The notes beneath the pieces were generated by a model, which searched no databases, had not been told where the DNA came from, and saw nothing but the letters and a program-made list of their open reading frames with translations. A DNA stretch of 36,512 nucleotides from a virus: the IMG/VR virus record IMGVR_UViG_3300017991_000236, positions 1 through 36,512 of that record. One strand, 5' to 3'. The position numbers were made by a program, and so were the translations under genes. This document shows positions 2,331 to 35,346 of this stretch, piece by piece; the first letter of the stretch is position 1, and each line of letters starts with the position of its first letter.

Positions 2331-3689
2331 GTGGTAGAGCACTCGCAACTTTTGGAACTCACGGACGAAATGGCCGCCAAGGAACACGAAATGCGGCTTG
2401 CGCTGCTCCGGCCCTTCCCGGAGTATTACGTGTTTTGGAAGGTGCAAACCGCGCCCAAGGAAGGCAACCGTGGCCGCGGCATGATGGTATGCTATGTGGA
2501 CGCCCGTGCCGTGGAGGACCGCTTGGACGAAGTGTTTGGGCCAACCGGCTGGACAGTGGACTATGAGGCTATGCAAGGCGGCATCAAGGCGACCTTGTAT
2601 ACCCGTTGGCCCAGTGGATGGCTCAGCAAGCCGAGCACGGGCGAGGACAAGGGCCTTATGGCCCAAGAGGCCCGCGCGCTCAAGCGGGCCGCTGTTAAGA
2701 TAGGCGTGGGCCGCTACTTGTACCGAGTGCCCAAGGCTTGGGTGACAGTGGAAAAGCGTGGGCGGAACTGGTATCCGGCCCGAGGCGAGACGCCGCTTTT
2801 GGAAGACGTGGCTCCGTGGGCCTTGCCCGGCTCGACGAGCGAAATGCCGGACGTGCCATACTGGGAGGCCGATGTGTTGGCCGAGGCCCTTACGGCATCG
2901 AGCGCCCTTTTGCCGGAACCAGAGTTGCCGCCACTGGACGAGGACCCCAGGCCCGCGCGCCCGCGCCAAAAGGTCGCACCGGGCACCGGCAAGGACCCGC
3001 GCGAGCTTGTGGCCGGCACGCCCCAGGCCGCCAAGGCCGCGGCCAAGGCCGGCCAAGCTGGCGAACACGTGCAGGGCCGCATGGTGCTCAAGGACGACCC
3101 CAAGCATCCCGTGCCGCCCAACTGGAAGGCCCTTTATGACCGCGCGCTGGAAGGCGAGCTTGGCGAGTACAAGGGCCGGCCACACGTGCAAAACGCGGTT
3201 CGCGAGCTTTATCCCGGCTTTGCACGCCGGGCCAAGGCCGAAAAGCAGGACGTAACCATCAAGGAAGCTTGGGACGTGCTACGCTTTAGAACGCTCAGCC
3301 CGGAGGCCCAGGCCGTGGTGATTGCCCGGCACGGCCTAGAGGAAACGGGCCTTGGCCAGAAGTTTGGCGCGCCCGCACAGGGCGATTCTGTGCCGGCCAC
3401 GGGCGAAACTGGCGACGAAACTGGCAATGCGCCGGCAGAGAACGCCCCCACGCAAGCGGCCAAGTGGAACGCAGACTTGGCACCGGGCGGAGGTTTGGAT
3501 CGTTGGGGGCGCTTTTGCGCACAAGCCGGCATTGCGCCGACAAACGCGACCGCGGCCTTGGGCGTGGCCAAGTTGACCGACTACGCGGGCACCTTGGGCG
3601 AGGCCGTGATGGCCGTGTGCGACCACCTGGGCCTTACGTACCAAGTAGGCGACGAAGGCGTGACCGTAGACTGGCCGCCCGCGCAATAG
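2331..3689 (+). CDS. Rad52/Rad22-like single-strand annealing protein, 452 aa
   Basis: It starts at GTG 2331 behind AAGGAG. The N-terminal part (about residues 20-145) has the pattern of the Rad52/Rad22 annealing family: PFPEYYVFWK, then YVDARAVEDRLDEVFGPTGW, then LKRAAVKIGVGRYLYRVP. Proteins of this family form rings that anneal complementary single strands, and phages use them for recombination-dependent repair and replication. The C-terminal 300 residues are unlike the core: an Ala/Pro/Lys-rich linker (about 205-255), a charged segment and a small folded-looking end. This tail may bind a partner such as a single-strand binding protein. The exonuclease gene downstream would make a natural recombination pair. 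Confidence 0.85.
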   Translation: MVEHSQLLELTDEMAAKEHEMRLALLRPFPEYYVFWKVQTAPKEGNRGRGMMVCYVDARAVEDRLDEVFGPTGWTVDYEAMQGGIKATLYTRWPSGWLSKPSTGEDKGLMAQEARALKRAAVKIGVGRYLYRVPKAWVTVEKRGRNWYPARGETPLLEDVAPWALPGSTSEMPDVPYWEADVLAEALTASSALLPEPELPPLDEDPRPARPRQKVAPGTGKDPRELVAGTPQAAKAAAKAGQAGEHVQGRMVLKDDPKHPVPPNWKALYDRALEGELGEYKGRPHVQNAVRELYPGFARRAKAEKQDVTIKEAWDVLRFRTLSPEAQAVVIARHGLEETGLGQKFGAPAQGDSVPATGETGDETGNAPAENAPTQAAKWNADLAPGGGLDRWGRFCAQAGIAPTNATAALGVAKLTDYAGTLGEAVMAVCDHLGLTYQVGDEGVTVDWPPAQ

Positions 3690-3768: not shown

Positions 3769-4860
3769 GTGCGAAAAGTGTTAGCATTCGATCTTGAAAT
3801 CACGCGGCCCTTGCCCTCGGGCGATATGGATGCCGCCCCTTTCGTGGGGATCTCGTGTTGTGCGGCCAAGCTGTCCGACGTGCCGCATCCGGTTGTCTGG
3901 TACGCTGGCCAAGGCCCACAATCCCAGTTCGAGGACTGGCCCTTGCCGGCAGAAATGGACGCCGGCCAGCTGGCAGAGGTCGCGGACTTCCTACTGCTCC
4001 ACGCGAGCCAAGGATACGAAATCGTAACGTGGAACGGCCTGGGCTTTGATTACAAGGTGCTCGCGCGCGGCATCGGTGACCCGGACCGCTCCGCGGCCTT
4101 GGCCAAGTTGGCGCTCACGCAATACGACCCCGGCTTTGTGCAAGTGTGCCAGGCCGGCTATATGGCCAAGCTGGTCGGCGTCGCCCAGGGCCTGGGCGTC
4201 GGCTCGAAAACTGCCGGCATGCATGGGGCGCTCGCGCCCGTGCTGTGGAGCAACGTGTGGCCCGAAACGCTGGACGAGGAAGGCGAGGCCGCCTTGCGGG
4301 CCGACATCGAGGGCTTGGCCCTTGCGCCCGGCTCCCGCGCGGCCCAGGATTTGGTCTTGGAGTATGTGGCCAACGACGTCGATATCACGCTGGCCAGCTA
4401 TATGGCCCTTTGCCAACGCCGGAGCGTGAACTGGATCACGGCCAGGGGGCGGCCCTCGCGTCGGCCCTGGTTGCCGAAGCTCAAGCGTGGCGCGCAAGGC
4501 GTTCGATTCTGGTCGCCGGCCGAAGCGCTCCACTTGCAAGAGCCGAACACCTCGTGGATGGACAGCCCGCCAAGGCCGCGCGAGGAATATTACAAGTGGA
4601 CCGTGGCCGCCTTGGGCGTGGCCCAGTGGCGCGCGATTGTGGGCATCGAGCCGATCTACCACGGCCCGAGGAACGCGCCCGCGCCCAACCCGGAGCCAGT
4701 GGCGGCCAAGGACAGCCAGGAAGATGATAGCTGGCCCGGCCCGCGGCCAGGCGTTCAGCCCACGGCACCGGCCCGCGGTCAAGTATCGGGCGACGAGCGC
4801 CCGCGCATTGTAGGCCGGCAAGATGGCGAGTGGCCCACGGAGCCGCCCCCAGGCTTTTAG
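3769..4860 (+). CDS. DEDDy 3'-5' exonuclease (RNase H-like fold), 363 aa
   Basis: It starts at GTG 3769 with AAGGAG just upstream. Three exonuclease motifs are in the right order: Exo I FDLE (D8, E10), Exo II WNGLGFD (N89, D94) and Exo III YVAND (Y199, D203, the YxxxD form that defines the DEDDy group). The arrangement resembles the proofreading domain of family B polymerases and their stand-alone PolB-like exonuclease relatives. The remaining 140 residues (after about 220) are basic, then Pro-rich, and hold no polymerase motifs. It probably trims DNA ends so that the adjacent Rad52-like protein can anneal them. Confidence 0.85.
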   Translation: MRKVLAFDLEITRPLPSGDMDAAPFVGISCCAAKLSDVPHPVVWYAGQGPQSQFEDWPLPAEMDAGQLAEVADFLLLHASQGYEIVTWNGLGFDYKVLARGIGDPDRSAALAKLALTQYDPGFVQVCQAGYMAKLVGVAQGLGVGSKTAGMHGALAPVLWSNVWPETLDEEGEAALRADIEGLALAPGSRAAQDLVLEYVANDVDITLASYMALCQRRSVNWITARGRPSRRPWLPKLKRGAQGVRFWSPAEALHLQEPNTSWMDSPPRPREEYYKWTVAALGVAQWRAIVGIEPIYHGPRNAPAPNPEPVAAKDSQEDDSWPGPRPGVQPTAPARGQVSGDERPRIVGRQDGEWPTEPPPGF

Positions 4861-4877: not shown

Positions 4878-5063
4878 GTGTCTTTGGCTGTAGTAATCGC
4901 AATCGGTTTTCTGTTGGCGTGCGCGGGAGCCTTGGGCCTTGCCGGCCTTGGAATGGGCATCGAGATCCGCGGCACACTTTCGATCCAAACGGAGCGCCGG
5001 GCCGTGGTGGTGAACTATGGCGTGGGCCTCGCTGGCCGGCCAGCGTGGCAAGGAGCGCGATAA
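4878..5063 (+). CDS. Small membrane protein, 61 aa
   Basis: Start GTG 4878 is chosen because AAGGAG (4865-4870) is seven bases upstream; an ATG at 4830 in the same frame lies inside the previous gene. Residues 2-25 form one hydrophobic helix (LAVVIAIGFLLACAGALGLA), followed by a short polar tail of about 35 residues. It begins the run of membrane genes that surrounds the FtsK-like translocase. The stop overlaps the next start (TAATG). Function unknown. Confidence 0.65.
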   Translation: MSLAVVIAIGFLLACAGALGLAGLGMGIEIRGTLSIQTERRAVVVNYGVGLAGRPAWQGAR

Positions 5064-5254
5064 TGCCGCTTTACTACTGGGACGGAGATATACACTGGGT
5101 CCGGTTCTGGAAACTGGGCATCGCGTTGGCCGGCAATCGCCGCGGCTTTTGCGTGGCCTACTTGGGCCGCCCGCCCGGCAAGGGCATGCCGGCCCTTGCT
5201 ATCCGATTCTGGCCGCCACGTGTGGCCATCGATAACTTTGAAGGGAAGGTGTAA
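5063..5254 (+). CDS. Hypothetical small protein, 63 aa
   Basis: ATG 5063 shares its first base with the previous TAA; AAGGAG lies at the end of the previous gene. The protein is short, aromatic and basic (MPLYYWDGDIHWVRFWK at the start) and has one modestly hydrophobic stretch but no clear membrane helix. A copy of the recurrent 12-mer GCCACGTGTGGC (5215-5226) is inside the coding sequence near the end. I do not recognise it. Confidence 0.6.
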   Translation: MPLYYWDGDIHWVRFWKLGIALAGNRRGFCVAYLGRPPGKGMPALAIRFWPPRVAIDNFEGKV

Positions 5255-5257
5255 GCT

Positions 5258-6058
5258 ATGGAATTCTATATGGAGCGACCGCGCAAACCGTGGAACGACT
5301 GGCGCATGTGGAGCATGCTTGTGCCTATCATGGTTTCTGCTGTAGGCTTTTTCGTCACGGGCGTGTTCGCGTTCGCCTTTAGCGACATCGAGGTTATACC
5401 CGCGCCCGTGCAAAGTGTGCTCGTTATCGTAGGCTCGGCCCTTATCATCTTTGGTGCCGAGTTGAACACGCCCTTTGCGGCCATCGAGGTGTTCCGCAAG
5501 ATTTTCACCAAGGAGGCCAACACTTGGGATTTCTCGGCCCTGGTGGTGTCCTTGGTGGGCACGGTCATCAACCTGCTTGTAACCTTTGCAAGCCGGCTAA
5601 CCATTGACCCGGCTTGGCGGCTTTTTATCCTCAACTGGGGACCGCTTTTGTCCGGCTTTGCCGTGGCGTGCGACTACTATGGCGCGCTCGTGGAACTGGG
5701 CTTTTTCTTTGGCTCCTATGAGATGCGCATGGCCACGTACATCGAGGAACGACGGCTTTTCACGGCACGCAAGGCACAGACCGCGCAAGCGGAGCCGACT
5801 GCAGAACACGAGGCGCCTGCAACCAAGGGCACCGACCAGAACCTGGGCAACCCGGCCAGCTGGCCCGCGGGCACGTTGGAGCTATTGACGGAAACGATCT
5901 TGCCCGGCATGAATGGCGAGGCGGCCACGCTTACCCGGCAAGGCTTGGCCGACGCCTATGCCAAACACGGCCACAAGCTCCCGAGCCCGAGCACGGTCAA
6001 GAGGCACCTAAAGGTCGCCCACACGTGGCACCAGGAGGCCGGCACCGATGAAGCGTAA
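5258..6058 (+). CDS. Four-helix membrane protein with C-terminal HTH-like domain, 266 aa
   Basis: It starts at ATG 5258, with GAAGGG upstream. About four transmembrane helices are visible (roughly residues 17-42, 48-68, 92-112 and 122-152), then a charged linker rich in Ala, Glu and Thr (about 165-205), then a soluble end. That end includes LTRQGLADAYAKHG and SPSTVKRHLKVA, which look like a helix-turn-helix. A membrane core joined to a cytoplasmic DNA-binding-type tail resembles actinobacterial plasmid transfer/Spd-type proteins in layout, but I cannot show homology. The FtsK-like gene 0.7 kb downstream supports a job in tethering DNA to the membrane. It overlaps the next gene by 11 bp. Confidence 0.7.
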   Translation: MEFYMERPRKPWNDWRMWSMLVPIMVSAVGFFVTGVFAFAFSDIEVIPAPVQSVLVIVGSALIIFGAELNTPFAAIEVFRKIFTKEANTWDFSALVVSLVGTVINLLVTFASRLTIDPAWRLFILNWGPLLSGFAVACDYYGALVELGFFFGSYEMRMATYIEERRLFTARKAQTAQAEPTAEHEAPATKGTDQNLGNPASWPAGTLELLTETILPGMNGEAATLTRQGLADAYAKHGHKLPSPSTVKRHLKVAHTWHQEAGTDEA

Positions 6059-6629
6059 GGCACGCAAGCAAGGCCAAACACTGCGAACGGCTTGGTGGGT
6101 CTTTTTCTACGTCCATCCTCGCTATGGCCGGCCTGGCAAGCCCGCGCGGGTTACGTGGTATCCGCCCGGCATGCGGGCACGTGCGGCCTGGCTGGTCGTG
6201 GTGCTTGTGGCTGTGGCCGCGAGCACGGGCCTCCAAGCGGCCCGCCTCTTGGACGAGGTTATGCTGTGGGAACACTGCAAGGCGAACGGATACGATGACT
6301 GGTATATCGGCCGATGGCCCTGGTGCATTGACGCCGAGACTGGCCGGCACGTGCCGGCCCACATAGATGGGAGATGGCAATGGCTAAAAAGCAAAGCCGG
6401 CAAGATGCTCCGCGTCGACGCGGAGGGTTCTTTGGGCCGCGTGACCAAACCGAAATCATCCACAGAGGGGAGCGCACCGACCCGCGCGCCGTCCTTGCCA
6501 CGTGTGGAGCCTTTGCCTTGGTCCTATGCATCGCGGCCTTGTGCGTCTATGGCGTGGCGGCCCTTTGGCAAGACCGGCCAGGGCGATGGTTCGCGGAGCA
6601 CTTCCGCGGCTTGGCCACGGCTTGGATAG
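6048..6629 (+). CDS. Single-pass membrane protein; C-terminal end uncertain
   Basis: ATG 6048 follows AGGAGG within the end of the previous gene. The frame is open for 193 codons. The first 110 residues look real: a basic N-terminus, one transmembrane segment (about residues 44-66) and a Trp/Cys-containing stretch (HCKANGYDDWYIGRWPWC). The rest is Ser/Pro/Arg-rich, without the protein-like character of the first part, and lies on top of the gene starting at 6380 in another frame. Either two genes truly overlap by 250 bp, or translation shifts -1 near 6380-6390, or there is a sequence error. The exact C-terminus should be treated as open. Confidence 0.5.
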   Translation: MKRKARKQGQTLRTAWWVFFYVHPRYGRPGKPARVTWYPPGMRARAAWLVVVLVAVAASTGLQAARLLDEVMLWEHCKANGYDDWYIGRWPWCIDAETGRHVPAHIDGRWQWLKSKAGKMLRVDAEGSLGRVTKPKSSTEGSAPTRAPSLPRVEPLPWSYASRPCASMAWRPFGKTGQGDGSRSTSAAWPRLG

Positions 6630-6799
6630 TGAGCCTGGGCCTTGGGGCATTGCTGGCCGCCTTTGTGCTGTTCTATGAAGCAATCGATCCAAACTGGCCG
6701 CCCCCACGCTCGGCAGTTCACACGCCCTTGATGCTGTTCCCGTTTGGTAAGGACCGCGGAGGTACAGACTATGACGTGGATTCGTACGAACTATCGTAA
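6380..6799 (+). CDS. Two-helix membrane protein, 139 aa
   Basis: I prefer ATG 6380 because GGGAG (6369-6373) lies six bases upstream; ATG 6374 touches that site. After a basic, Arg-rich N-terminus the protein has two clear membrane segments, AVLATCGAFALVLCIAALCV (about residues 38-57) and WIVSLGLGALLAAFVLFYEA (about 83-103), then a short tail. It overlaps both the previous gene's open end and the start of the FtsK-like gene (by 29 bp). It forms part of the membrane cluster; no family recognised. Confidence 0.6.
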   Translation: MAKKQSRQDAPRRRGGFFGPRDQTEIIHRGERTDPRAVLATCGAFALVLCIAALCVYGVAALWQDRPGRWFAEHFRGLATAWIVSLGLGALLAAFVLFYEAIDPNWPPPRSAVHTPLMLFPFGKDRGGTDYDVDSYELS

Positions 6800-8324
6800 G
6801 CTCATGGTGGGCTTTGTGGCCTTTGACGTGCTGGCCTTGACGGCCTTGGCCTTTCTGCTCTTGGTCGAGAACGCCACGGGCCTCCGGCTTTGGCTCGCCT
6901 ATGCGTGGGCCGGCCTTTGGACGTGGCGTACACTGGGCCGGTTCTTGAGCGTGGCGCTCGTGGCCGTGGTGCTTTTCTTCCTCGGCTTGCCGGTCTATGA
7001 TGCCTTGTTCCAACGCAAGGCCCGCGCGGACAGGCACGCGGTCAAGATGGAGCACATGCGCACGCAAGCGGCCCACGCCCGGACGCGACAGCTGGCCGCG
7101 CCCGATTTGCGTGGCGGCTGGACGGCCACAGTGGACCCGGCCCGGCCCGGTTGGCTGGACCTTGAACAGCTGGATACCGAGCAGGACCGGCTACTTGCGG
7201 CCCTTGCTCAAGCCCGTGGTGGGTCACGTGGCCCACGTGGGCCAGCTGGCCCGCTCCTAGAGGCCGACAACGCGCCCACGCTGCCCACGCTGGTCCGCCC
7301 GGAGGAACTACTGGGCGAAGTGATTACCTATCGGGACATGCCCTTGGGCATAGGCCCGGAAGGCGTGGTGCGTGGTGACCTTGTAAAGTTCGTACACTGG
7401 GCCATAGCCGGGTCATCGGGTTGGGGCAAGAGCGCCCTTATGCGTTGGCTTGCCTATCTGCTGGCCATGAGCGTGGACCCCATCGACCTTGTTTTGATCG
7501 ACTTGGAGGATGTCACGCTGGCACCGTTTGAAACCGCGCGCAATGCCAAGTATCCCGTGGCCCGTGATGAGCGGACCATCTTGGCCGTGTTGCGGGCCTT
7601 GCTTGGCGAAGTTGAACGCCGGAGCGAGCTTTTCGAGGTATACCGCGACCGTGGCGTGGACAGCTTGGCCCGCTACAATGCCGTATCCGAGGACCGGCTT
7701 GCGCCCGTGGCCGTGCTCATTGACGAGGCCGCGGCCTTGATGCAGAACGCAGATGTGCGCGATGCCATCATGCCGGCCCTTTGGCGGTCGCGCAAGTATG
7801 GGATCTTCTACCTGTGCGCGGCCCAGGTTTGGTATGCTAACACTATCGACAGCCGGGCCGCGACCCAGTTTGGCACGGCCACGCACTTCCACGCGGAAAA
7901 GGCGAGCCAGGGCCGGGCCTTGGGGATGCCCGAGGCCGCCGACATCAACGTGCAAGGCCGGGCCATCCTGCGCATGCCGGGCCGGGCCAACATGATGATT
8001 CAAACGCCCCTTATCACGGAACGCCACATGCGCCAAGTCCGTGGCGATGGGCCTATGGAACTCGAGTACCCGACTTTGATGGCATGCACGCCCGCCGAGG
8101 CCAAGCGGCTGTCCGGGCACGACCCGGAGGCCGAATACCTGGCCAACTTGCTGGCCTCGCCCTTGGCCGGCCAAGTCCAGGCGGCTATGGCGGACGGAGC
8201 GGCCAACCCAAGCCAAGTGTGCAAGGCCCTCGGCAAGTCTGCCGGAGGCAAACCGTATACAGACATCAGTATGCTTTACAAGCATTTCGCCACTTCTACT
8301 TCTACCGAAGGCGTGGCCCAGTAG
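6771..8324 (+). CDS. FtsK/SpoIIIE-HerA type DNA translocase, 517 aa
   Basis: Start ATG 6771 is set by GGAGGT (6758-6763) seven bases upstream; an in-frame TTG at 6744 has no such site. Two or three N-terminal membrane helices (about residues 12-32, 40-52 and 58-76) precede a linker and a motor domain with Walker A GSSGWGKS (214-221) and Walker B VAVLIDEAA (D318, E319). This is the order seen in FtsK/SpoIIIE and Tra-type proteins, hexameric motors that pump double-stranded DNA across or along membranes. The last 50 residues (NPSQVCKALGKS onward) may be a small DNA-binding module like the FtsK gamma domain. Such genes are common in conjugative plasmids and rare in siphoviruses, pointing to plasmid-like maintenance or transfer. 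Confidence 0.85.
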   Translation: MTWIRTNYRKLMVGFVAFDVLALTALAFLLLVENATGLRLWLAYAWAGLWTWRTLGRFLSVALVAVVLFFLGLPVYDALFQRKARADRHAVKMEHMRTQAAHARTRQLAAPDLRGGWTATVDPARPGWLDLEQLDTEQDRLLAALAQARGGSRGPRGPAGPLLEADNAPTLPTLVRPEELLGEVITYRDMPLGIGPEGVVRGDLVKFVHWAIAGSSGWGKSALMRWLAYLLAMSVDPIDLVLIDLEDVTLAPFETARNAKYPVARDERTILAVLRALLGEVERRSELFEVYRDRGVDSLARYNAVSEDRLAPVAVLIDEAAALMQNADVRDAIMPALWRSRKYGIFYLCAAQVWYANTIDSRAATQFGTATHFHAEKASQGRALGMPEAADINVQGRAILRMPGRANMMIQTPLITERHMRQVRGDGPMELEYPTLMACTPAEAKRLSGHDPEAEYLANLLASPLAGQVQAAMADGAANPSQVCKALGKSAGGKPYTDISMLYKHFATSTSTEGVAQ

Positions 8325-8356
8325 CACGCCGGGCCGGCTTTTGGTAGTAGTAGAAG
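8293..8356 (+). other. Long inverted repeat spanning the FtsK-like stop codon
   Basis: CTTCTACTTCTACC (8293-8306) pairs with GGTAGTAGTAGAAG (8343-8356) with one mismatch in 14. Within the 36-base interval a second stem, GGCGTG with CACGCC, forms around the TAG stop, followed by GGGCCGGCTTTT. The result is a nested hairpin at the gene's end. It could end or attenuate transcription or protect the messenger; a transfer or partition site is conceivable because it sits at a translocase gene. Confidence 0.65.
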
Positions 8357-8386
8357 AATCACGCCCAACACAAAGGAGCAGACCCG

Positions 8387-8821
8387 ATGAAAAAGACAAC
8401 CTTTATCCGCGGAACCGTGGCCCTGGTCGTGCTGGCCGCCCTGGCGGCCTTGGTTGGCTGTAACCCAAAGGACGCCGGGCCTACAGCTGAAGAACTGTTC
8501 TTGGCCCAGTTGGCCACGCAGAAGGAAGGCTACATTGCGCAACAAAAGGACGCCGAGGCGCGCGTGGCCGAGGTCATCCCGGACGCCATTGCCGAAACGT
8601 ACAAGGGCAAAAGCATCTTGGAGATCGCAGAGGCCGAAGGGCACAATAGCCGGCTCATGACCATCACGCTGGCCCGGTTGGCCACGTCGGAGCTTGACGC
8701 CCGCGAATCGTGGCGCGAGTTTGTCCAGACCACAGTATGGGCCTTGTGCGCCATTGCGTTCTTGGTGCTCTTGATCGTCTTTATGGTCACGAGTGACGCC
8801 AAGGCCAAAGGGCACCGATGA
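8387..8821 (+). CDS. Lipoprotein with C-terminal membrane helix, 144 aa
   Basis: ATG 8387 follows CAAAGGAGCAGA, the leader shared with the genes at 1325 and 4878. The N-terminus is a lipoprotein signal: basic MKKTTFIR, hydrophobic core, and lipobox LVGC with Cys25 as the predicted lipidated residue. A charged helical region (about 33-105) follows, then a second membrane segment (about 113-135, WALCAIAFLVLLIVFMV) and a basic tail. The middle part would lie outside the membrane and the C-terminus inside. It closes the FtsK-like membrane cluster and overlaps the next gene by ATGA. No family recognised. Confidence 0.7.
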   Translation: MKKTTFIRGTVALVVLAALAALVGCNPKDAGPTAEELFLAQLATQKEGYIAQQKDAEARVAEVIPDAIAETYKGKSILEIAEAEGHNSRLMTITLARLATSELDARESWREFVQTTVWALCAIAFLVLLIVFMVTSDAKAKGHR

Positions 8822-21442: not shown

Positions 21443-22324
21443 CTAGAGCCTCGCCCAGTTTGGCGGAGCCTGGCGCGCAAGGTGCGCCACTGCTGGGTCT
21501 ATCTTGCGCGGGTAACGAAGCTCGCCAAAGTCCACGGCTCCGCCCGTATCGGACCAGCCCGACATGGCCATCTTGTACCAGATGGCCGTCTGCATCTTGC
21601 ACGCGCGCTCTATCAACGCGGGCACCGTGGCGCTCACGCCCCACACGGCTGTCACGCGAACGCGGTCTTGGCCGCGCGTCCAAACTTGCTTTGTTCCGCT
21701 GCTCTTGCGGTTCACATCGAGCCGCCATATCGGTTGATTCGTGAGCGTGTTGCGCGGCCATGTAAAGTAGTCCGTGGCCGCCCATTCGGTATAGGTGCCG
21801 TCCGTTTCCTCTACTTCCACAGTGGAAACCGATACAGCCGGCCACGGCAAGCGTAGCGATACCTGCCCGTTTCCATCCAGCACTCGAGCAGAGGCCGCGC
21901 CCGTGGCCAAGTAGGCGTTATTCTCAAGCCCGCGTTGGGCGTCGATTAGGCGGCTCGCCTCGATGGCCATTTTCCAAAGGGAGTAGTCCCACTTTGCCCC
22001 CACGTTGCTGATGCCGCTGCCGATGGCCAACTCTTGCCGGACATCGCTGGCCGTACAATAGGCGTCCATCGTGCCGCCTTGCTGAACGGCAGACTTGGCC
22101 GATTCGCCGGGCGATGTACCATAAAAGGCCGCCTTGTAATACGTGGCCGTATCGCCATCGGTGTCCACGTACATATAGCCGGTCGTGTGCTCGACAAGGG
22201 TTACAGTTCCGTCCAGCGAAGCAAAGCCGCCCGCGGGGTCGGTGTCCGTGTAGACCCGGATAACCGTGTAACCCTTGGCCATGATGTTGGCAATGTCGTC
22301 CACTGCCAGTTCCAAGCGAATCAT
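21443..22324 (-). CDS. Head-tail connector/adaptor with N-terminal beta domain, 293 aa
   Basis: ATG at 22324 overlaps the previous stop (ATGA). The second part (from about residue 85, MDAYCTASDVRQELAIG) resembles the helical phage head-tail adaptor group, with paired helices at IEASRLIDAQRG and ERACKMQTAIWYKMA. The first 80 residues are a beta-rich domain (VTLVEHTTGYMYVDTDGD) that the short adaptors lack. It should ring the portal's lower end and accept the tail. Confidence 0.65.
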   Translation of the reverse strand: MIRLELAVDDIANIMAKGYTVIRVYTDTDPAGGFASLDGTVTLVEHTTGYMYVDTDGDTATYYKAAFYGTSPGESAKSAVQQGGTMDAYCTASDVRQELAIGSGISNVGAKWDYSLWKMAIEASRLIDAQRGLENNAYLATGAASARVLDGNGQVSLRLPWPAVSVSTVEVEETDGTYTEWAATDYFTWPRNTLTNQPIWRLDVNRKSSGTKQVWTRGQDRVRVTAVWGVSATVPALIERACKMQTAIWYKMAMSGWSDTGGAVDFGELRYPRKIDPAVAHLARQAPPNWARL

Positions 22325-25014
22325 TTCGTTTCCTCCGATGCGCCCAGTGTAGGCCCGCCACTGCTGGCCGAGCGGATTATGGGCGCTTCAAACTCTTGGC
22401 CGGCCCGCACTTCCGGCCCGGTCAAGGCGGCCCGTATAGTCGGCCCTATCTGCCGGAACATCTGGACCACAAGCCCGCCCGCGACGGCCAGCGTGCCGGC
22501 CAGGACCAAGCCCGTGGTGCGGGTAAGTGTGCCGGCCATGCCAACCGTGCCGCCGAACGCTCGGGCGTAGCTGTACAGCCGGTCCAGCGTGCCGGCCAGG
22601 ACAAGCTGGCCGCCTACGGACAGGAAGAACAGCCTTGTGGTGTCCAGCTGGCCGGCCAAGCCCAAGACGCCGGCCAACGCAAGGGCCACGCCCCTGGCCA
22701 GCGTGCCGGCCAAGGGCAAGGTGCCCGCGGCCCGCTTGCTCGTGCGCCTCGCCATAGCTCCCGATAGTCCAAGGACTCCCGCGAGCACCACGAAAGCCGT
22801 GCGAAGCGTGGCCAGCTGGCCAGATAGTCCAAGGACTCCCGCGAGCGCAAGGCCCACAAGCCGGGCAAGGTTGCCGGCAAGCTGTAAGGTTCCTGCCAGG
22901 ATAATGGCAGTTTTCCGGGCCAGCTGGCCGGCCAAGGGCAAGGTGCCGGCAAGGGCAAGCTGTCCTTGGCGTACAAGCTGGCCGGCCAGGGCAAGGTCGC
23001 CCTGGAAGGCCACAAGGGCCACAAGCCGCACGACCACGCCCACGGGCGTGATGGTGCCCGCGGCCCGCTTGGTGCTATGCCGGCTCGTGGTGCCAGCAAG
23101 GCCGAGGATCCCGGCCAAGGCGAGCGGCACGAAGCGCCACGTGGCCACGACGCCGGCAAGGCCCAAGGTGCCCGCCCCACGCTTGTCCGTTCTACGTGTG
23201 GCCGCGCCACTGGGCGCGAGTGTGCCGGCTTGGCGTGGCAAGCTGGCCGCCCGGTTAGTGCTCCCGGATAGTCCAAGGACTCCCGCGAGGTATAGGAACA
23301 CGCCTTTTTCGTAGGCCACGCTCCCGGATAGTCCAAGGACTCCCGCGAGGTTCGCGAGCGCCACGAGTATCCGTAAGGTGCCCGTAAGGGCCAGCGTGCC
23401 GGCCAGGGCCAAGGCCGTGGCCCGCGTAAGCTCGCCCGTGGGGGCAAGCGTGCCGGCCAGCGTCCTGGCCGCCCGGAGGGAGGCCGCTGCCGTGCCGGCC
23501 AAGGCCAGCGTGCCGGCCAGCGTTACAGCTGTCAGAAGGGCCAGCGTGCCGGCCAGGCCAACCGTTCCGACGAGCCGCTTGGCCGTTTTGCGAGAGGCCG
23601 CACCGCTTGGAGCCATAGCGCCCGAAAGGGCCTTGCCCGGCTGTCTGACTGTCGCCCCACTTGGAGCAAGCTGGCCGGCCTGCCGCGGGATTGCCGTTCT
23701 GCGACTGGGCGCGCCACTGGGCGCGAGCGTCCCGGCCACGGCCCTGGCCAGCGTGGCCACACGTGCAAAGGCTCCCGCAAGGGACAAGGTGCCGGCTGTA
23801 GGCTTGGCCGTTTGGCGCGCCGTCGCCCCACTGGGCACCACTTGGCCAGCTGTGGCCCGCGCGGCCCGTAAGGCCGGGTCGCCGGCTCCACTGGGCGAGA
23901 TTGTGCCCGCTTGCCGTGGGATAGCCGTGTGCCTGTTGGTTGCCCCACTGGGCGCGATTGTGCCGGCTTGCCGTGGGATAGCCGTCTGTCTGTTGGTTGC
24001 CCCACTGGGCACCAGGACGCCGGCTTGCCGTGGGATTGCCACGTGCCGAGAGGGCGCGCCACTGGGAGCCAACGCGCCCGCGAGGGCCTTGCCGGCCATC
24101 CTCAGAAGGCCGCCACTTGGGCCGATTGTGCCGGCTTGCCGTGGGATGGCCACGCCTCTCGCAAGCGTGCCCGCTGGCCCTAGACTGCCGGCTTGCCGTG
24201 GAATCGTCACGGCCCGAAGGACCGCGCCCGCGGGAGCCAGGACGCCCCCACGTGTGAGCCGTATGGCCCTGGCCGCGTAACCTTGGGGCGTAAGCTGGCC
24301 GGCCAGAACCTTGGCGGCCTCGCGGTCTATTGCGCCGGCCAAGCCAAGCGTGCCCGCGGCACCTTGGGTATATTGCGTGCTCCGCGCCCCTATTTCGGTA
24401 TCGTCGTCGCGGAACACGATTTCGTCAATGTAGAAGGTGCTATTCCACGTGTTGGCCGTGTAGATGACGCCCGCGCGGAAGCTGGACGGCTTGCTTAGAT
24501 CGTAGATGTCCAGCGTGTTATCTGTCTGCTTTTGCACGCCATCGAACCACCACGTAATGGTCGCGTCACTGGCCACGGCAGAGGAAGCGTACTCCACGAG
24601 AACCTCTATGTAGTGTTCCTCGTCCGTTATAGATTGCGCCCCGCCCAAGTAGGTCCACGAAAAGCTATCGTCTATGTAGCGCAAGCGTAGCTCGTGGATA
24701 GGCCCGGACCGGCTTGTGTAGCTGATTTGGATGCGCCCGCTATTGTTGTCGTAAACCGTGAACACTTGGCCTATGCCGTACTCCGCGTATCCGTTTGGGT
24801 CGAAGTAAAAGCGGAATCGGTAGGCATCGCTCGTGATTTGCGTGAAATCGTAGCGGCCATATATGGCCGTAGTGTCGTCCGCGTTGGCAACCATGCCGCC
24901 ACTGGACCCGCCCAAAGCCGCGGCAGACGCCCAGTATAGGTCGCCTCCATCGGTTACGGTTGAGGAAAACTCCGAAAGATCGGATTCCAGTTCCAGATTG
25001 CAGATTTCAGCCAT
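22321..25014 (-). CDS. Lectin-like domain plus 34-repeat solenoid, 897 aa
   Basis: ATG at 25014. Residues 1 to about 215 have the beta-sandwich look of a concanavalin/LamG-type fold (with WYF-rich strands, FRFYFDPNG and FYIDEIVFRDDD). From about residue 220 to 860 there are some 34 repeats of 17-20 residues with core AGTLxLAGxLxR or AGTLAPSGATxR; the link between cores alternates between hydrophobic (ALAL) and IPRQ forms. The last 40 residues are non-repetitive. Such a regular Gly/Leu pattern suggests a solenoid or fibre. It lies between head genes and connectors and may be a head fibre or side appendage that binds host glycans. I know of no assigned function. Confidence 0.75.
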   Translation of the reverse strand: MAEICNLELESDLSEFSSTVTDGGDLYWASAAALGGSSGGMVANADDTTAIYGRYDFTQITSDAYRFRFYFDPNGYAEYGIGQVFTVYDNNSGRIQISYTSRSGPIHELRLRYIDDSFSWTYLGGAQSITDEEHYIEVLVEYASSAVASDATITWWFDGVQKQTDNTLDIYDLSKPSSFRAGVIYTANTWNSTFYIDEIVFRDDDTEIGARSTQYTQGAAGTLGLAGAIDREAAKVLAGQLTPQGYAARAIRLTRGGVLAPAGAVLRAVTIPRQAGSLGPAGTLARGVAIPRQAGTIGPSGGLLRMAGKALAGALAPSGAPSRHVAIPRQAGVLVPSGATNRQTAIPRQAGTIAPSGATNRHTAIPRQAGTISPSGAGDPALRAARATAGQVVPSGATARQTAKPTAGTLSLAGAFARVATLARAVAGTLAPSGAPSRRTAIPRQAGQLAPSGATVRQPGKALSGAMAPSGAASRKTAKRLVGTVGLAGTLALLTAVTLAGTLALAGTAAASLRAARTLAGTLAPTGELTRATALALAGTLALTGTLRILVALANLAGVLGLSGSVAYEKGVFLYLAGVLGLSGSTNRAASLPRQAGTLAPSGAATRRTDKRGAGTLGLAGVVATWRFVPLALAGILGLAGTTSRHSTKRAAGTITPVGVVVRLVALVAFQGDLALAGQLVRQGQLALAGTLPLAGQLARKTAIILAGTLQLAGNLARLVGLALAGVLGLSGQLATLRTAFVVLAGVLGLSGAMARRTSKRAAGTLPLAGTLARGVALALAGVLGLAGQLDTTRLFFLSVGGQLVLAGTLDRLYSYARAFGGTVGMAGTLTRTTGLVLAGTLAVAGGLVVQMFRQIGPTIRAALTGPEVRAGQEFEAPIIRSASSGGPTLGASEETK
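22763..23349. repeat. Four identical 23-bp repeats inside the solenoid gene
   Basis: The same 23-bp string (starting GATAGTCCAAGG) occurs at 22763-22785, 22823-22845, 23267-23289 and 23327-23349, each pair 60 bp apart. It encodes LAGVLGLSG units. Other repeats encode similar residues with different codons, so exact identity here points to recent duplication or gene conversion. Confidence 0.85.
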
Positions 25015-26691: not shown

Positions 26692-27540
26692 CTACTTTGT
26701 TGTGATTTCGCGGCTCCCCAAAGCGTCGATCTCATAATGCACATCGAACTCTAGGATGTAGATGCCGCCCGTGTAGTTGTCTGATGCCGCGGCCTCGCGG
26801 TATAGCCGCACGGCCAAGATGCTGGATAGGCCCTCGCCCGTGCCGGCTATGCCCGAGGCCGGAAGCCCGGTTATCTCGTGATTGTAGGCCGTGTCGCCGG
26901 CCACGTTGCGCGTGACGATAGTGGTGGTGGTGATGGTTTCGCCTATGCTGGACCAGATGTACTCAAGGCCCAAGCCCACGTTCTTGGTCGACGCATCGCC
27001 CTCGGCCATCCAGTGGACGTGAGGATAGATCGTGCTGGCCGTTTTCCAGCCGTGGGGCATCTGCACGGTTAGCCATATTTCGTCATCATCATCGAACGAG
27101 TAGGCATACACGCCCGAACTGGAATTGCCATCGTCGGCCCACTGCTCATAGGTTGGCACGTTGGAGCCGGCTGTTTTGCCACGCTCCAAGGGCACGCGCA
27201 AATCTTCCCACACGGTTCCGTCGCCATACAGCTGGAGCGCATCCGTGCCGCCCAGGCGGGCCGTTTCCGTGCCGCCACTGTACACGCCAAGCCGGCCAAG
27301 GGCACCGTCCAGGCGTAGCGTTTCCGTGGCAAGGTTGTCGCTGTAGAACTGTAGGCGACCTCCGTGCCGCATATAGCTGTCGTCGGAACAGTTGATGCAG
27401 ATGCGTTCCCGTGGGGAGTTGGCCCGGCTCCCTATGTCGCCCAAGTCTACGGTCGGCTCGGGCGTCTGCCGGCATGCCACGCCAAGGCATAGCACCAGGG
27501 CCAAGGTTAGCGCCAAAGCCGGCCATCGTTTTGTTCGCAT
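26692..27540 (-). CDS. Lipoprotein with virion-like C-terminal domain, 282 aa
   Basis: ATG at 27540 follows TAGGAGG. A lipoprotein signal ends at the lipobox LGVAC (Cys23). Residues 24 to about 78 are a near copy of the next protein upstream: DLGDIGSRA, SPRERICINC (a CxxC pair) and FYSDNLAT are shared. The rest (about 115-282) is beta-rich with an aromatic HGWKTASTIYPHVHW stretch and a GIAGTGEGLSSI loop, the style of phage fibre or knob domains. The signal peptide predicts export and lipid anchoring, unexpected for a gene beside the capsid. It may mark the host surface or mask a receptor. Confidence 0.7.
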   Translation of the reverse strand: MRTKRWPALALTLALVLCLGVACRQTPEPTVDLGDIGSRANSPRERICINCSDDSYMRHGGRLQFYSDNLATETLRLDGALGRLGVYSGGTETARLGGTDALQLYGDGTVWEDLRVPLERGKTAGSNVPTYEQWADDGNSSSGVYAYSFDDDDEIWLTVQMPHGWKTASTIYPHVHWMAEGDASTKNVGLGLEYIWSSIGETITTTTIVTRNVAGDTAYNHEITGLPASGIAGTGEGLSSILAVRLYREAAASDNYTGGIYILEFDVHYEIDALGSREITTK

Positions 27541-27562: not shown

Positions 27563-28447
27563 CTACTGGATGCGGGTATAGACGATGTAGATGGTCGCGG
27601 CTCCGGCCGACAGCGTTTCACCGCTGGCCTCGTCCACGAGCCAATCTATGGTTTCATCGGCACCGCTTGGGGCGTAGACGAAGGCCCGGCCTCCTGCCGC
27701 GGCATCGAGGTAAGCGCCCTGCGTGGCCGGGACTTGCCCTTGCCAACCCGCGGCCCAACCCGTGCCCTCGGTGTCGCTGGTCTGTAGCTCGGCATCGGCC
27801 AGCACAAGGAAGCCATCGGCATCGTTGCCGTCACCGACGACCAGCGTAGCATCGTCGCCCGTGCAATCGAAATCCGTGGTGATTTGCGCGAAAACCGCGT
27901 GGACGAGCCAGATCTCGCCATCGCCCACAGTGAAGGCCGCGCCCGTGCCTCCTGCCGCGGCTGTATAGGTGATGCTTGTGCTGGCCACGGTCGGGAACAT
28001 AAGGTGCTCGACGCCGATGGCCGCTGTGATGTTGCCGGCTGTAAGGTCGATGTCGCCGGCCGTCATGGTAAGGTCGCCCGCTGTAACCGTGGCATCGCCG
28101 GCAGTGACGACAAGGTTGCCCGCTGTAAGTGTGGTATCGCCCGCGGCCAGCGTGAGATCTCCGGCTGTAAGGGCCAAGTCGCCCGTGGCCAGCGTAACAT
28201 CGCCACTGGACCCGCCCAAGGCCAAGGTCTGCGTGGCAAGGTTGTCGCTATAGAAGTACAGCGTGCCAGCGTGGCGCATATAGCTGTCGTCCGCGCAACT
28301 GATACAGATGCGCTCGCGTGGCGAGCCGGCCCGGCTCCCGATGTCGCCAAGATCGAAAGTAGGTTCTGGCGTGGGCGTTTTGCGGCATCCGGCCAGCAAG
28401 GCCAGCAAGGCCAGCAGAACAAAGCCCGCGCGAAGTTTGGTTTTCAC
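27563..28447 (-). CDS. Lipoprotein with nine heptad repeats, 294 aa
   Basis: GTG at 28447 overlaps the previous stop (GTGA). A lipoprotein signal ends at LLAGC (Cys21). Residues 22-80 match the N-terminal module of the gene at 26692-27540. Residues 82-144 are nine seven-residue units of the form TAGDLTL, typical of a left- or right-handed beta-solenoid or trimeric shaft in phage fibres. A beta-rich head (about 150-294) follows. Combining a lipoprotein signal with fibre-like shaft and knob is unusual and suggests a surface-anchored, phage-encoded adhesin or receptor mask. Confidence 0.72.
   Translation of the reverse strand: MKTKLRAGFVLLALLALLAGCRKTPTPEPTFDLGDIGSRAGSPRERICISCADDSYMRHAGTLYFYSDNLATQTLALGGSSGDVTLATGDLALTAGDLTLAAGDTTLTAGNLVVTAGDATVTAGDLTMTAGDIDLTAGNITAAIGVEHLMFPTVASTSITYTAAAGGTGAAFTVGDGEIWLVHAVFAQITTDFDCTGDDATLVVGDGNDADGFLVLADAELQTSDTEGTGWAAGWQGQVPATQGAYLDAAAGGRAFVYAPSGADETIDWLVDEASGETLSAGAATIYIVYTRIQ
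28016..28204 (-). repeat. 21-bp tandem repeat coding for nine heptads
   Basis: Nine 21-bp units encode GDVTLAT, GDLALTA, GDLTLAA, GDTTLTA, GNLVVTA, GDATVTA, GDLTMTA, GDIDLTA and GNITAAI in order. Units differ in codons, so the array is not freshly expanded. Slippage could still change its length between relatives. Confidence 0.85.
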
Positions 28448-31689: not shown

Positions 31690-33952
31690 GAATCCTCCTT
31701 TGCCAGCTGGCCGCGAATAGGATAGCTGGCGCGAAAATGGCCTCACATCTACAATTGATGTCCTCTGCCGGCACGCCCGACATTCGAGGCGCCTGCATCG
31801 TGGTATCGCCCACGCTAAAAGGTTGGTCCGCGGGTATAGGCGTGTTTTGATAGTTGTCGTGGGCGTTCCTATGGTTATCGCGCGTGCGCTCGTCCATAGC
31901 CGCGCTCCACGTTTTCACAAGCTGGACGCCCGATTGCATTGCGCCCTGCCAACGCCCCAAGCTCCGAGCCTTGCCCATCTCCGTCCGGGTTATGCGCTCC
32001 AATTGCCAAAGCTCGGCCCGCTTGCCAAAGACGCCATCGGTACGCTTGCCCAACTCCGTGGCCATCTGGAACGCAGACCAGCCTTCCTCTTGCGCCTCGG
32101 CCAGCATTGCGCGCAAGGCCACGTCCAGCATTTCGAGCGTGGTGCCGGTTATGTCCTCCGCGAACACCATGCGCATTTCTTTCAAGGCGTTGGCCACGAA
32201 CGGGTCCGTAAGATCAAAGATTACGTCCACGCCAATTTCGGCCAACACGCCCGCGCCCGCGGCCCGCGTCATGTCCGTGTAGAACTGCTCCATGCGGAGC
32301 GCAAACCAAGCCGCCCAGTATTCCGCGTCGAAGAACTCGCTTGCTTCCTCGGGTATCCTTGGTTCTTGGTCTTGCTTGGTGCCCTCGCGGGCCATATAGG
32401 CCGCCAAGGCCGCGCCCGTTTCCTCGCCTTGCTTGGCCAAGTCCGCGGCCAAGCGTTCGCGCATCGCCTTTTCGTAAGGGAGGGCGATGCCTTGTATGGC
32501 TTTCCACTGGGCTTTGTGCCTGGCAGAACCGTAGTCCGGGAACACTTGCCGGGTCACTGCCGGCAGTAGGCCGGCCACACGTGGCCCAACGATGGCCAGT
32601 TCTTCATCTTCCGGCTCTGCGTCGTCGTCGCCCGTGCCGGGATCCTCGCCATCGTTGGCCGGCTCACCTTGGCCGGGTTGCCAGCTGGTCGGAGCTTGCC
32701 GGAGTTGGGCTTGCTCGATGGACATAACGCCCACGGGCACAAAGCCCACATCGCCCCCAGGCACCGGGCCAAAGCCCAAGCCCATCCGGTCGTCTATGAG
32801 GTTGAGCGGGTATCCCATCGACCAAAAAATCTTAGCCGCGTCGGCCTTATCGGCTATGTTCTCCTGCAGGGCGGCCACGCTGGACGTGTCCGTGGCCACG
32901 CGCTCGGAGCGGGCCAGCAAGGGCCGCACGCGCGAGAAAAAGGCCGTAATAGCGGCATCGCGGGCCATAAGGAACGGGAGCAAGGTTAGCTTCCAGAACC
33001 ATAGGTGCGCTTGATCCATGTTCTCGTAAGTGTTGGCCTCGCCCCAACCCATAATCTCGCCGGGCACGCCAAACACTGCCGCCACTTCCACGCGGGAGAA
33101 CTTGCGCTGTTCAAGCCACTGGATGTCTACGGGCGACCAGCTAAAGGTTTTGATGTCGGTTACGCCCTCTTCGAGCACGATAGGCTTGTGGGCGTTTTCC
33201 GTGCCCGCGTGGCTTTCGTCTATGCGCTGATAGTAGTCCTGGCGCTCCGTGGTGGTAAGGCCCTCGGGCGCGACCAAGGCCCAGTCCGGACGCGCGCCCC
33301 CACGCAAGAAACCCTTGCTCCACGCTTGGGCAAACATGTCGATTGTAATGCCCTGCCGCACCGCGCCCGCGGGAGCCAGGCCGCGGAACGGTTGCCGTGG
33401 GTTGTAGAACTTATCGTGCACCACGTTTTCAAAGGGCACCTCGCGTTCGTCGTACACATAGCCGGCCACACGTGGAAAGTGAGGCTCGGCCACATCGGGC
33501 ACCACATCCACGAGATCGGGCCGCCTTGGCCACAGTTCCACGGGCACGCCGGCCCGGCTGTCGCGCAACTCGTGGAACGTTTCGCCTCCAAGGAGCTTTT
33601 GCACGCAATAGGCGTTCCATAGGTCCACGGGCGAGGTGTCCGGGTTAACGTATGCCAAAAGCTCGCTCACTGGATGGGCCTCGATGGCCTTGCCGGCACC
33701 GTCCACAACCCGCACGGGCAAGGGAGCAATGGCATCGGCATACTTGCGAACGGCCTTTTGTACCCAAGCATAGACCTCGTACACGCGGGCATAGCTCTCG
33801 AAGTCGCCGGAGATCTGGGCGACGGCTTTGCCGCCCGAACTGTATACGTGCTCGCGGTCGGCAAGCTCGGGATGGTGCGAAATGGCCTTGCCCTGGCCGC
33901 CTTGCTGCCAAGCCGCCCGTGCCGCTTGCCATCGTTGTCGCAGTGTTGGCAT
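31664..33952 (-). CDS. Portal protein fused to MuF-like domain, 762 aa
   Basis: ATG at 33952 overlaps the terminase TAA (TAATG); an earlier in-frame ATG at 33976 lies inside the terminase gene. The first 430 or so residues are an HK97-family portal (VYEVYAWVQKAVRKYADAIA, then the FSRVEVAAVFGVPGEIMG segment). After an acidic linker (GEDPGTGDDDAEPEDEE) a long helical region leads to the MuF signature: RTEMGKARSLGRWQGAM, DERTRDNHRNAHD and EDINCRCEAIF at the end. Portals ring the DNA entry vertex; MuF proteins are injected or structural minor head proteins. Fusion of both in one chain is less common than two genes. Confidence 0.88.
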   Translation of the reverse strand: MPTLRQRWQAARAAWQQGGQGKAISHHPELADREHVYSSGGKAVAQISGDFESYARVYEVYAWVQKAVRKYADAIAPLPVRVVDGAGKAIEAHPVSELLAYVNPDTSPVDLWNAYCVQKLLGGETFHELRDSRAGVPVELWPRRPDLVDVVPDVAEPHFPRVAGYVYDEREVPFENVVHDKFYNPRQPFRGLAPAGAVRQGITIDMFAQAWSKGFLRGGARPDWALVAPEGLTTTERQDYYQRIDESHAGTENAHKPIVLEEGVTDIKTFSWSPVDIQWLEQRKFSRVEVAAVFGVPGEIMGWGEANTYENMDQAHLWFWKLTLLPFLMARDAAITAFFSRVRPLLARSERVATDTSSVAALQENIADKADAAKIFWSMGYPLNLIDDRMGLGFGPVPGGDVGFVPVGVMSIEQAQLRQAPTSWQPGQGEPANDGEDPGTGDDDAEPEDEELAIVGPRVAGLLPAVTRQVFPDYGSARHKAQWKAIQGIALPYEKAMRERLAADLAKQGEETGAALAAYMAREGTKQDQEPRIPEEASEFFDAEYWAAWFALRMEQFYTDMTRAAGAGVLAEIGVDVIFDLTDPFVANALKEMRMVFAEDITGTTLEMLDVALRAMLAEAQEEGWSAFQMATELGKRTDGVFGKRAELWQLERITRTEMGKARSLGRWQGAMQSGVQLVKTWSAAMDERTRDNHRNAHDNYQNTPIPADQPFSVGDTTMQAPRMSGVPAEDINCRCEAIFAPAILFAASWQRRILEKATVGA

Positions 33953-35346
33953 TATGCCGCCCTTCCGCGGAGCCAAACCCAGTTTTCCAAGGCTTGGGCC
34001 GCGTGGTCGTTCCCGTCTGCCGGCTCGTCTGCATAGCCGTCGCGGGTTTCCTTGTTTTTATAGCCGGTTAGCACCTCGTCCAAGAGGGCCTTGCATCGTG
34101 GATGCACCAAGAGCGTTCTGTGGCCCTTGCCGTCTAGCACCAGGGCACGGGTTTCGCGTATAGCCGCCTTCCGCGTGCTTTGGCCGCCTCCGGCCTTGCG
34201 GGCCATCCAATTCCGGGCCGGGATATCGGCCGCTCGGAGCCGCTTGCGCAAGGCCGCGGCCTCGTGGGCGACCGCGGCTATCTCGGGCAAGGGCACGCCA
34301 CGACGCCGAAGCCAACCCGCAAGCTCGCGGTTCTCCTTGATTTCGTCCGGCCAGGGGTCTTTGTGGCCCGTGGCCCGGTCCTCGGGCGCGAGGGCCGCGT
34401 GTGGTGCCCAGTGGTACGCCTTGGCCAGTATGCTCCGCACGGTTTCTTCCTCTAGGTGCTCGCGTTGGTATAGCTCGTCAAAGACCACATAATGCGCCCC
34501 TTGCTTCTGTACGAACACCACGGCCCGCGGGTCTATGTAACCGTCGTCAATGCCGATTTCGTAAGGCCGGCCCGGCACAAAGCCCACATCCCGGACGTTG
34601 GCCTGGCTAAACTTGGCATACACAAGGCCCTCCACGCCCACATACCAGTCGCCCTCGACCCAAGCCTTTCGCAATGCTGGCGTAAGCGTGGCCAACATCT
34701 CCCAGTATGATGGGTCAAGGTGCGGGTTGTCCGTGGGCAAGGCCGCCACATAGGCAAAGTCGTCCTCGTGGCCGGCAAGGTGCTCGGGCAAATCGCGTTC
34801 GATCCAGTAGCGCCGGACCCACTTGAAATACTCGCCGTTCGGGTTAGTGGCCGCGATAAAGAACGGGTCGTGCACGCCCGGCCAGCGTAGGGAACCGCGC
34901 AAGGTATCAAAAGTGGATTCCGGGTCTTTGGTTAGCTCATCGACGGCTATGCCGGCAAACTCCACGCTCTGATACTTGGTTGGGTCGTCTAGGTTGCGGA
35001 GCAGTATGCCGCCTCCGCCATAGCGTTCGTGAAGAAAGTAGCCAAAGCCATCAAGCCGCGACGAACGCACGCGGCCAAGCCAGGGCGGAAACTGGGTCTT
35101 GATTTTGGTTACGTGGCGGTCTGTGAGGCTTGGATAGTCCTCGCAGAACAGCCCAACCCGCACGCCCTTCAAGCCTTGCTTGGCCCAGTGTAGGAGCCTC
35201 CGCACAAGATACCATCGAATCCAGTGGCTTTTTCCCGGCCCGCGCGACCCGCCGAACAAGGTGTACAGCGTTTGGTCTGCCGTGGCCGTGGCCTCCATCT
35301 GCTTGGCCGTGAACGTGCAAAGGTCGGAAAAGGCTATTTCGGCCAT
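33952..35346 (-). CDS. Terminase large subunit, 464 aa
   Basis: ATG at 35346 directly follows the small-subunit stop. The ATPase has Walker A GGSRGPGKS (32-40), Walker B GIAVDE (D136, E137) and the coupling motif IAATNPN (about 164-170). The nuclease (RNase H-like) half has GIDDGYIDPRAVVF (D267/D268) and NDHAAQALE near the end, giving the usual acidic residues. It drives DNA packaging through the portal and cuts concatemers. Length is typical. Confidence 0.95.
   Translation of the reverse strand: MAEIAFSDLCTFTAKQMEATATADQTLYTLFGGSRGPGKSHWIRWYLVRRLLHWAKQGLKGVRVGLFCEDYPSLTDRHVTKIKTQFPPWLGRVRSSRLDGFGYFLHERYGGGGILLRNLDDPTKYQSVEFAGIAVDELTKDPESTFDTLRGSLRWPGVHDPFFIAATNPNGEYFKWVRRYWIERDLPEHLAGHEDDFAYVAALPTDNPHLDPSYWEMLATLTPALRKAWVEGDWYVGVEGLVYAKFSQANVRDVGFVPGRPYEIGIDDGYIDPRAVVFVQKQGAHYVVFDELYQREHLEEETVRSILAKAYHWAPHAALAPEDRATGHKDPWPDEIKENRELAGWLRRRGVPLPEIAAVAHEAAALRKRLRAADIPARNWMARKAGGGQSTRKAAIRETRALVLDGKGHRTLLVHPRCKALLDEVLTGYKNKETRDGYADEPADGNDHAAQALENWVWLRGRAA

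Follow-up and report, generated by a model that had tools for sequence, protein, structure and literature searches.

FtsK-like motors encoded by phages are already known; an experimental test of their function was not found in the literature. FtsK/SpoIIIE-type motors with a Replic_Relax partner have been described from temperate phages of Bacillus and related hosts and from phage-like plasmids (SpaA1, phi18-2 and Bacillus velezensis p3), and for the B. pumilus phages Novomoskovsk and Bolokhovo the authors infer plasmid replication and segregation from FtsK, Replic_Relax and ribbon-helix-helix (RHH) proteins (PMC9658697). Here we analyzed a gene block at positions 4878-8821 of a 36,512-base virus record (IMGVR_UViG_3300017991_000236, positions 1 to 36,512; this whole stretch is referred to as the window), in which a 517-residue FtsK-type translocase (the motor) is encoded together with small membrane proteins and a 266-residue protein with four predicted transmembrane (TM) helices and a C-terminal helix-turn-helix (HTH)-like domain (the 4TM-HTH protein). 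An earlier note on this DNA had described the block as a plasmid transfer or segregation module that might define a phage-plasmid.

Our preferred reading, to which we assign a probability of roughly 0.45, is that the product of the block is a DNA translocase anchored in the membrane, which would segregate or tether phage DNA. Since relatives place the motor beside plasmid-segregation genes, its probable task is to move phage DNA, or to anchor it, at the membrane of the host. The features taken from sequence and structural models are an FtsK/TcpA-type motor, N-terminal helices, HTH-like tails, small membrane proteins and a unit that is conserved after recombination genes. The motor subfamily (eight compared) pairs with either an HTH-tailed membrane protein or ParM with or without ParB, and this partner pattern is a concrete link between a membrane DNA pump and phage-genome segregation.

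The motor and its relatives

The motor passed the Pfam cut-off for FtsK_SpoIIIE (44.9 bits versus 24, E 1.2e-11), in agreement with the translocase with N-terminal helices reported in the earlier note, and matched phrog_1358 (E 6.6e-28). Its layout comprises two N-terminal TM helices, a RecA-like core at about residues 190-430 and an HTH-like C-terminal domain at about 460-515. Walker A (GSSGWGKS) and Walker B, the latter seen as a conserved DE, are both intact; the FtsK gamma domain had no Pfam match. Profile comparison with the PDB returned EccC (3.8e-15), FtsK (3.9e-11) and TcpA (2.5e-10), and a Foldseek search with a weak structural model (predicted local distance difference test score, pLDDT, 57) gave TcpA as the best match (2.7e-7), with FtsK bound to double-stranded DNA (about 1e-6) and EccC also found. 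Similarity to NCBIfam EssC/EccC amounted to 52 bits versus a cut-off of 778 and covered one ATPase domain. Profile similarity to the Bacillus-phage FtsK/Replic_Relax proteins was significant (E 7e-17), and matches in defence libraries were generic FtsK-domain ones only (e.g. SspH and mad8). Homology to a packaging ATPase, which the earlier note had named as evidence that would count against it, is not the case: the window has a separate terminase and portal, which rules out this role, and the sole terminase-type match of the motor was phrog_2666 at 1e-3.

Two relatives with similar terminases were available for comparison, G003 (53,865 bases, terminase 65% identical to that of the window) and G004 (53,960 bases, 74% identical). 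The two sequences overlap exactly at their ends, by 144 and 123 bases, respectively, as would complete circularly permuted genomes, and because of these overlaps absences in G003 and G004 carry weight. The motor is 37-43% identical to those of G003 and G004, and an alignment search added six further phage contigs with a motor 41-42% identical over the best segment. One of these (L125) was left out of the tree as a probable near-copy, its span and identity being equal to those of L124. The eight phage motors formed one long-branched clade with a support of 100/100, which excluded the FtsK proteins of E. coli and actinobacteria, the Bacillus-phage FtsK/Replic_Relax motors and Tra of pIJ101, the last on a branch whose own position was unsure. 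The tree was built from the motor core only with a small chosen outgroup set and shows the clade against these outgroups only; all clade members are IMG/VR records. Judged by sequence, the motor represents, among the sequences compared, a branch of the FtsK family that is confined to phages and had not been listed before. N-terminal TM helices were predicted in most clade motors and none was detected in L124; in G004 the reading frame of the motor seems to be interrupted ahead of the core, and the piece compared is cut at this break. All eight motors end in an HTH-like stretch, as seen by eye in the alignment.

A further FtsK motor, encoded by G007 (L096:14810-16936), lies on a branch separate from the window motor and is fused to an N-terminal lipobox, a long helical stretch and a TM helix. 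This architecture is like that of the lipoprotein encoded after the motor in the window, but in sequence the N-terminus of the G007 protein is not significantly similar to it and was rejected as a homologue. The adjacent 271-residue gene product looked Replic_Relax-like by eye; Pfam, PHROGs and hhalign all returned nothing, so it was not used.

Partner genes and the gene block

A 4TM-HTH-type protein is encoded upstream of the motor in five of the eight clade members (window, G003, G004, L124 and L128). In the window, G003 and G004 this is the 266-residue type, located a few genes upstream, and in L124 and L128 a multi-TM protein with a C-terminal HTH (HTH_11, 1.9e-4; HTH_24, 7.7e-8). Two other members, L126 and L127, carry an actin-like ParM upstream of the motor (ALP_N, 1.9e-24 and 4.1e-22). 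In L126 ParB precedes ParM, and a DnaA_N protein and a tyrosine recombinase follow the motor; L127 encodes a protein 49% identical over 77 residues to the product of the window gene preceding the large terminase. Neither a 4TM-HTH protein nor ParM was present among the neighbours examined for the eighth motor (L129). With PF17989, ParM was not detected in the window, in G003 or G004, or in the remaining records searched; here and below, absences refer to the profiles named.

Short proteins have the start V[FY]F..DIA..L in common (L124:7026-7244, L122:6480-6716 and L095:5515-5811). In L124 and G004 their gene follows that of the motor, and in L122 it is located close to the 4TM-HTH gene; none was recognised in the window.

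For the 266-residue protein, hydropathy gave three clear TM segments and an AlphaFold2 model four long helices (pLDDT 72). The HTH-like end that the earlier note had proposed is supported by model helices at 207-264 (pLDDT about 80), though it has no Pfam match of its own. Identity was 38% to the G003 and 59% to the G004 homologue. Searches of PDB and BFVD with the model gave no fold match at E 0.001; there was a weak fold-level match to DUF2637 (E 0.62), for which the profile itself gave no match. We propose that the protein may act as a membrane-embedded DNA-binding adaptor. The block and its immediate surroundings contain the following features:

2331-3689, plus strand: Erf/Rad52 annealing protein, directly upstream, also in G003 and G004
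3769-4860, plus strand: RNase H-fold exonuclease-like protein, directly upstream, also in G003 and G004
4878-5063, plus strand: 61-residue protein with one TM helix by hydropathy; GTG start with AAAGGAG upstream
5063-5254, plus strand: 63-residue soluble protein without TM helix by hydropathy
5258-6058, plus strand: 266-residue protein, four predicted membrane helices and C-terminal HTH-like domain
6048-6629, plus strand: 193-residue frame, one TM helix followed by a short stretch in which C..G[YF]DD...WC is conserved
6380-6799, plus strand: 139-residue protein, two TM helices, conserved RGERT[DN]P[RK]AV before the first
6771-8324, plus strand: 517-residue FtsK-type translocase (Pfam, PHROG and PDB profile matches)
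8288-8362, plus strand: strong RNA hairpin across the stop codon of ftsK, lying between this gene and that of the lipoprotein
8387-8821, plus strand: 144-residue lipoprotein with lipobox LVGC, helical extracytoplasmic part and C-terminal TM helix
8818-9141, plus strand: further open reading frame of 107 residues, overlapping the end of the lipoprotein gene

Membrane or lipid signals in the 61-, 266-, 139- and 144-residue products and the 193-residue frame, as well as their lack in the 63-residue product, had been claimed before and were seen again by hydropathy and the lipobox. A purine-rich Shine-Dalgarno-like stretch precedes seven of the eight starts between 4878 and 8818 and is weak at 8818. 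The hairpin at the motor stop codon has a predicted energy of -41.2 kcal/mol (z -7.66 versus shuffles).

The order annealing protein, RNase H-fold protein, 4TM-HTH, one-TM, two-TM and motor is kept in both G003 and G004, and because of this conservation in two relatives the block is more than a chance arrangement. G004 has an extra 228-residue gene after the 4TM-HTH gene. Homologues of the 193-residue frame occur in G003 (128 residues) and G004, with the match to G003 confined to the first ~105 residues; the frame overlaps the 139-residue gene by 250 nucleotides (6380-6629), compared with ~220 in G004 and 20 in G003. The 139-residue protein is 35-36% identical to its homologue in G003 and 44-46% to that in G004. 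The lipoprotein shares 33% identity with the product of the gene that follows ftsK in G003, and no homologue was found in the complete relative G004. The 61-residue protein had no family match in Pfam or PHROGs, and a homologue of the 63-residue protein was not found in G003 or G004.

The window belongs to a tailed phage, in agreement with the earlier note: terminase (33952-35346; phrog_2, E 4.7e-26), portal, maturation protease and major head protein were identified on the minus strand, and the plus strand carries the early genes. The window seems to be incomplete, since it lacks a terminal overlap and its right end truncates a gene for a DNA methyltransferase. Two scans of genome collections for prophages or hosts gave no match. 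Among other features of the window, CCACGTGTGG occurs at 17 sites (0.19 expected from shuffles), e.g. 960, 3725, 9155, 9224, 12891, 19195, 26664 and 28566. Eight of these are intergenic, intergenic sequence making up about 10% of the window, and several lie within hairpin-like palindromes; they are possibly operators, terminators or DNA-organising sites. As a binding site of the motor the repeat was rejected, as it was not found in the G003 and G004 pieces read. CACGTG is present in 51 copies in the window and in none in 33.9 kb of G003 (L009 and L100), possibly through avoidance of a host restriction site. The minus strand also encodes an 897-residue protein consisting mostly of short alanine/leucine/glycine-rich repeats (22321-25014), with a similar protein in G003, and, within the structural region, two proteins with lipoprotein-type signals sharing the stretch PRERICI.C.DDSYMRH (26692-27540 and 27563-28447), to which a G003 protein is similar.

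Proposed role and competing explanations

In the proposed mechanism the motor would assemble as a hexamer at the inner membrane, where its C-terminal domain and the 4TM-HTH protein would hold phage DNA, and ATP hydrolysis would pull this DNA through the motor ring. Replicated phage genomes, or an extrachromosomal prophage, could thereby be tethered, untangled and segregated. The 4TM-HTH protein would then serve as a membrane-based substitute for a partition partner of the filament type, because the neighbouring slot in relatives holds actin-like ParM with or without ParB. A more specific version, which we regard as rather unlikely, is pump-driven partition, with the 4TM-HTH protein as a membrane centromere binder and the motor hauling or sorting phage DNA copies in place of the ParA/ParM filament of the relatives.

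Several observations weigh against segregation or tethering. PF00589, PF13614, PF00239 and PF17989 (ParA, ParM and recombinases) as well as PF13814 (Replic_Relax) had no match in the window, G003 or G004, and because none of these was found with the profiles used, the three give no independent indication of a plasmid-like existence or of the phage-plasmid life suggested earlier. For the HTH at the C-terminus of the motor, Pfam gave no match. A further homologue of the 266-residue protein, in L122, has no motor close to it on its 19.6-kb fragment. When the 4TM parts of L124 and L128 were compared with the 266-residue protein by hhalign, no sequence similarity was detected; the likeness of these partners is, at the level of sequence, one of architecture, with homology unproven.

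Alternatively, the motor might act within the lytic cycle on infecting or replicating DNA, for example by pulling in the remainder of the genome once the first genes have been expressed or, before packaging, by anchoring recombination-made concatemers at the membrane. This would fit the position of the block after the Erf annealing and RNase H-fold genes in all three genomes and, in G003 and G004, downstream of phage-type replication genes (O/DnaD-like initiator and DnaC-like loader), and lysogeny genes were not found in G003 or G004 by the profiles used. It leaves unexplained, however, the ParM/ParB neighbours of the closest motors and the related phages with similar terminases that lack the block, many of these records being fragments, and we consider it somewhat improbable.

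Conjugation-like transfer of the phage genome between touching cells, of the TraB/Spd or TcpA type, appears distinctly less likely still. The motor fold resembles the coupling protein TcpA, hhalign aligned the motor with pIJ101 Tra over the ATP-binding region (E 3e-6), and the combination of motor, small membrane proteins and membrane HTH protein resembles TraB with Spd proteins. Yet the motor falls outside the Tra branch, unsure as the position of that branch is, the 4TM protein has no match in 72,556 plasmids and no similarity to pIJ101 SpdB or the 371-residue pJV1 open reading frame tested, the DUF2637 profile gave no match, and the relaxase profiles PF03432 and PF13814 had no match in the window, G003 or G004, other relaxase families not having been searched. 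VirB4-type mating-pore genes did not turn up among the genes examined, for which no dedicated profile search was made.

Protein export or superinfection exclusion, with an EccC-like motor powering export and the lipoprotein as its outward part, appears similarly unlikely: the NCBIfam and PDB similarity to EssC/EccC, the presence of a lipoprotein and several membrane proteins, and the G007 fusion of lipobox, helical stretch and TM helix to an FtsK motor are set against a single ATPase domain instead of the tandem domains of EccC, the HTH-like C-terminal domain, FtsK and TcpA matches that are about as good, the missing lipoprotein in G004 and the dissimilar G007 N-terminus.

Partition is a better part of the earlier interpretation than transfer: ParM beside the closest motors, with ParB in one case, favours segregation, and the lack of a relaxase by the profiles used and of similarity to the Spd-type proteins compared disfavours transfer. 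Absence from plasmid-like relatives, also raised in the earlier note, applies to the 4TM protein with respect to plasmids and does not extend to the motor, whose relatives adjoin plasmid-type genes.

Comparison with known systems

TcpA of the conjugative plasmid pCW3 (PDB 6o1w-6o1z) is an FtsK-type motor and the best fold match of the phage protein, but works with a conjugation machinery, for which no relaxase was found here by the two profiles used. The ATPases EccC/EssC of the type VII secretion system are likewise FtsK-type ATPases, with E-values similar to those for FtsK; the phage motor differs from them by its one ATPase domain and HTH-like tail. In the Streptomyces TraB/Spd modules of pIJ101 and pJV1 an FtsK-like motor likewise adjoins small membrane proteins, but the tested membrane proteins have no detectable homology and the phage motor lies outside that branch. 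With bacterial FtsK/SpoIIIE it has in common the membrane anchor, Walker A and B and a DNA-binding-type C-terminal domain, and differs in its two N-terminal TM helices, short linker, an HTH unmatched by the Pfam gamma model and a separate clade. The Bacillus-type pairs share a phage-encoded motor in a plasmid-like context; their motors are about 385 residues long, with no N-terminal TM helix detected in the two checked, and are followed by a Replic_Relax or HTH-annotated gene, in contrast to the 4TM-HTH protein and lack of Replic_Relax here. By sequence comparison, the block is of the same general kind as the Bacillus-phage FtsK/Replic_Relax/RHH sets, but its motor falls in a clade of its own and its HTH partner is a membrane protein.

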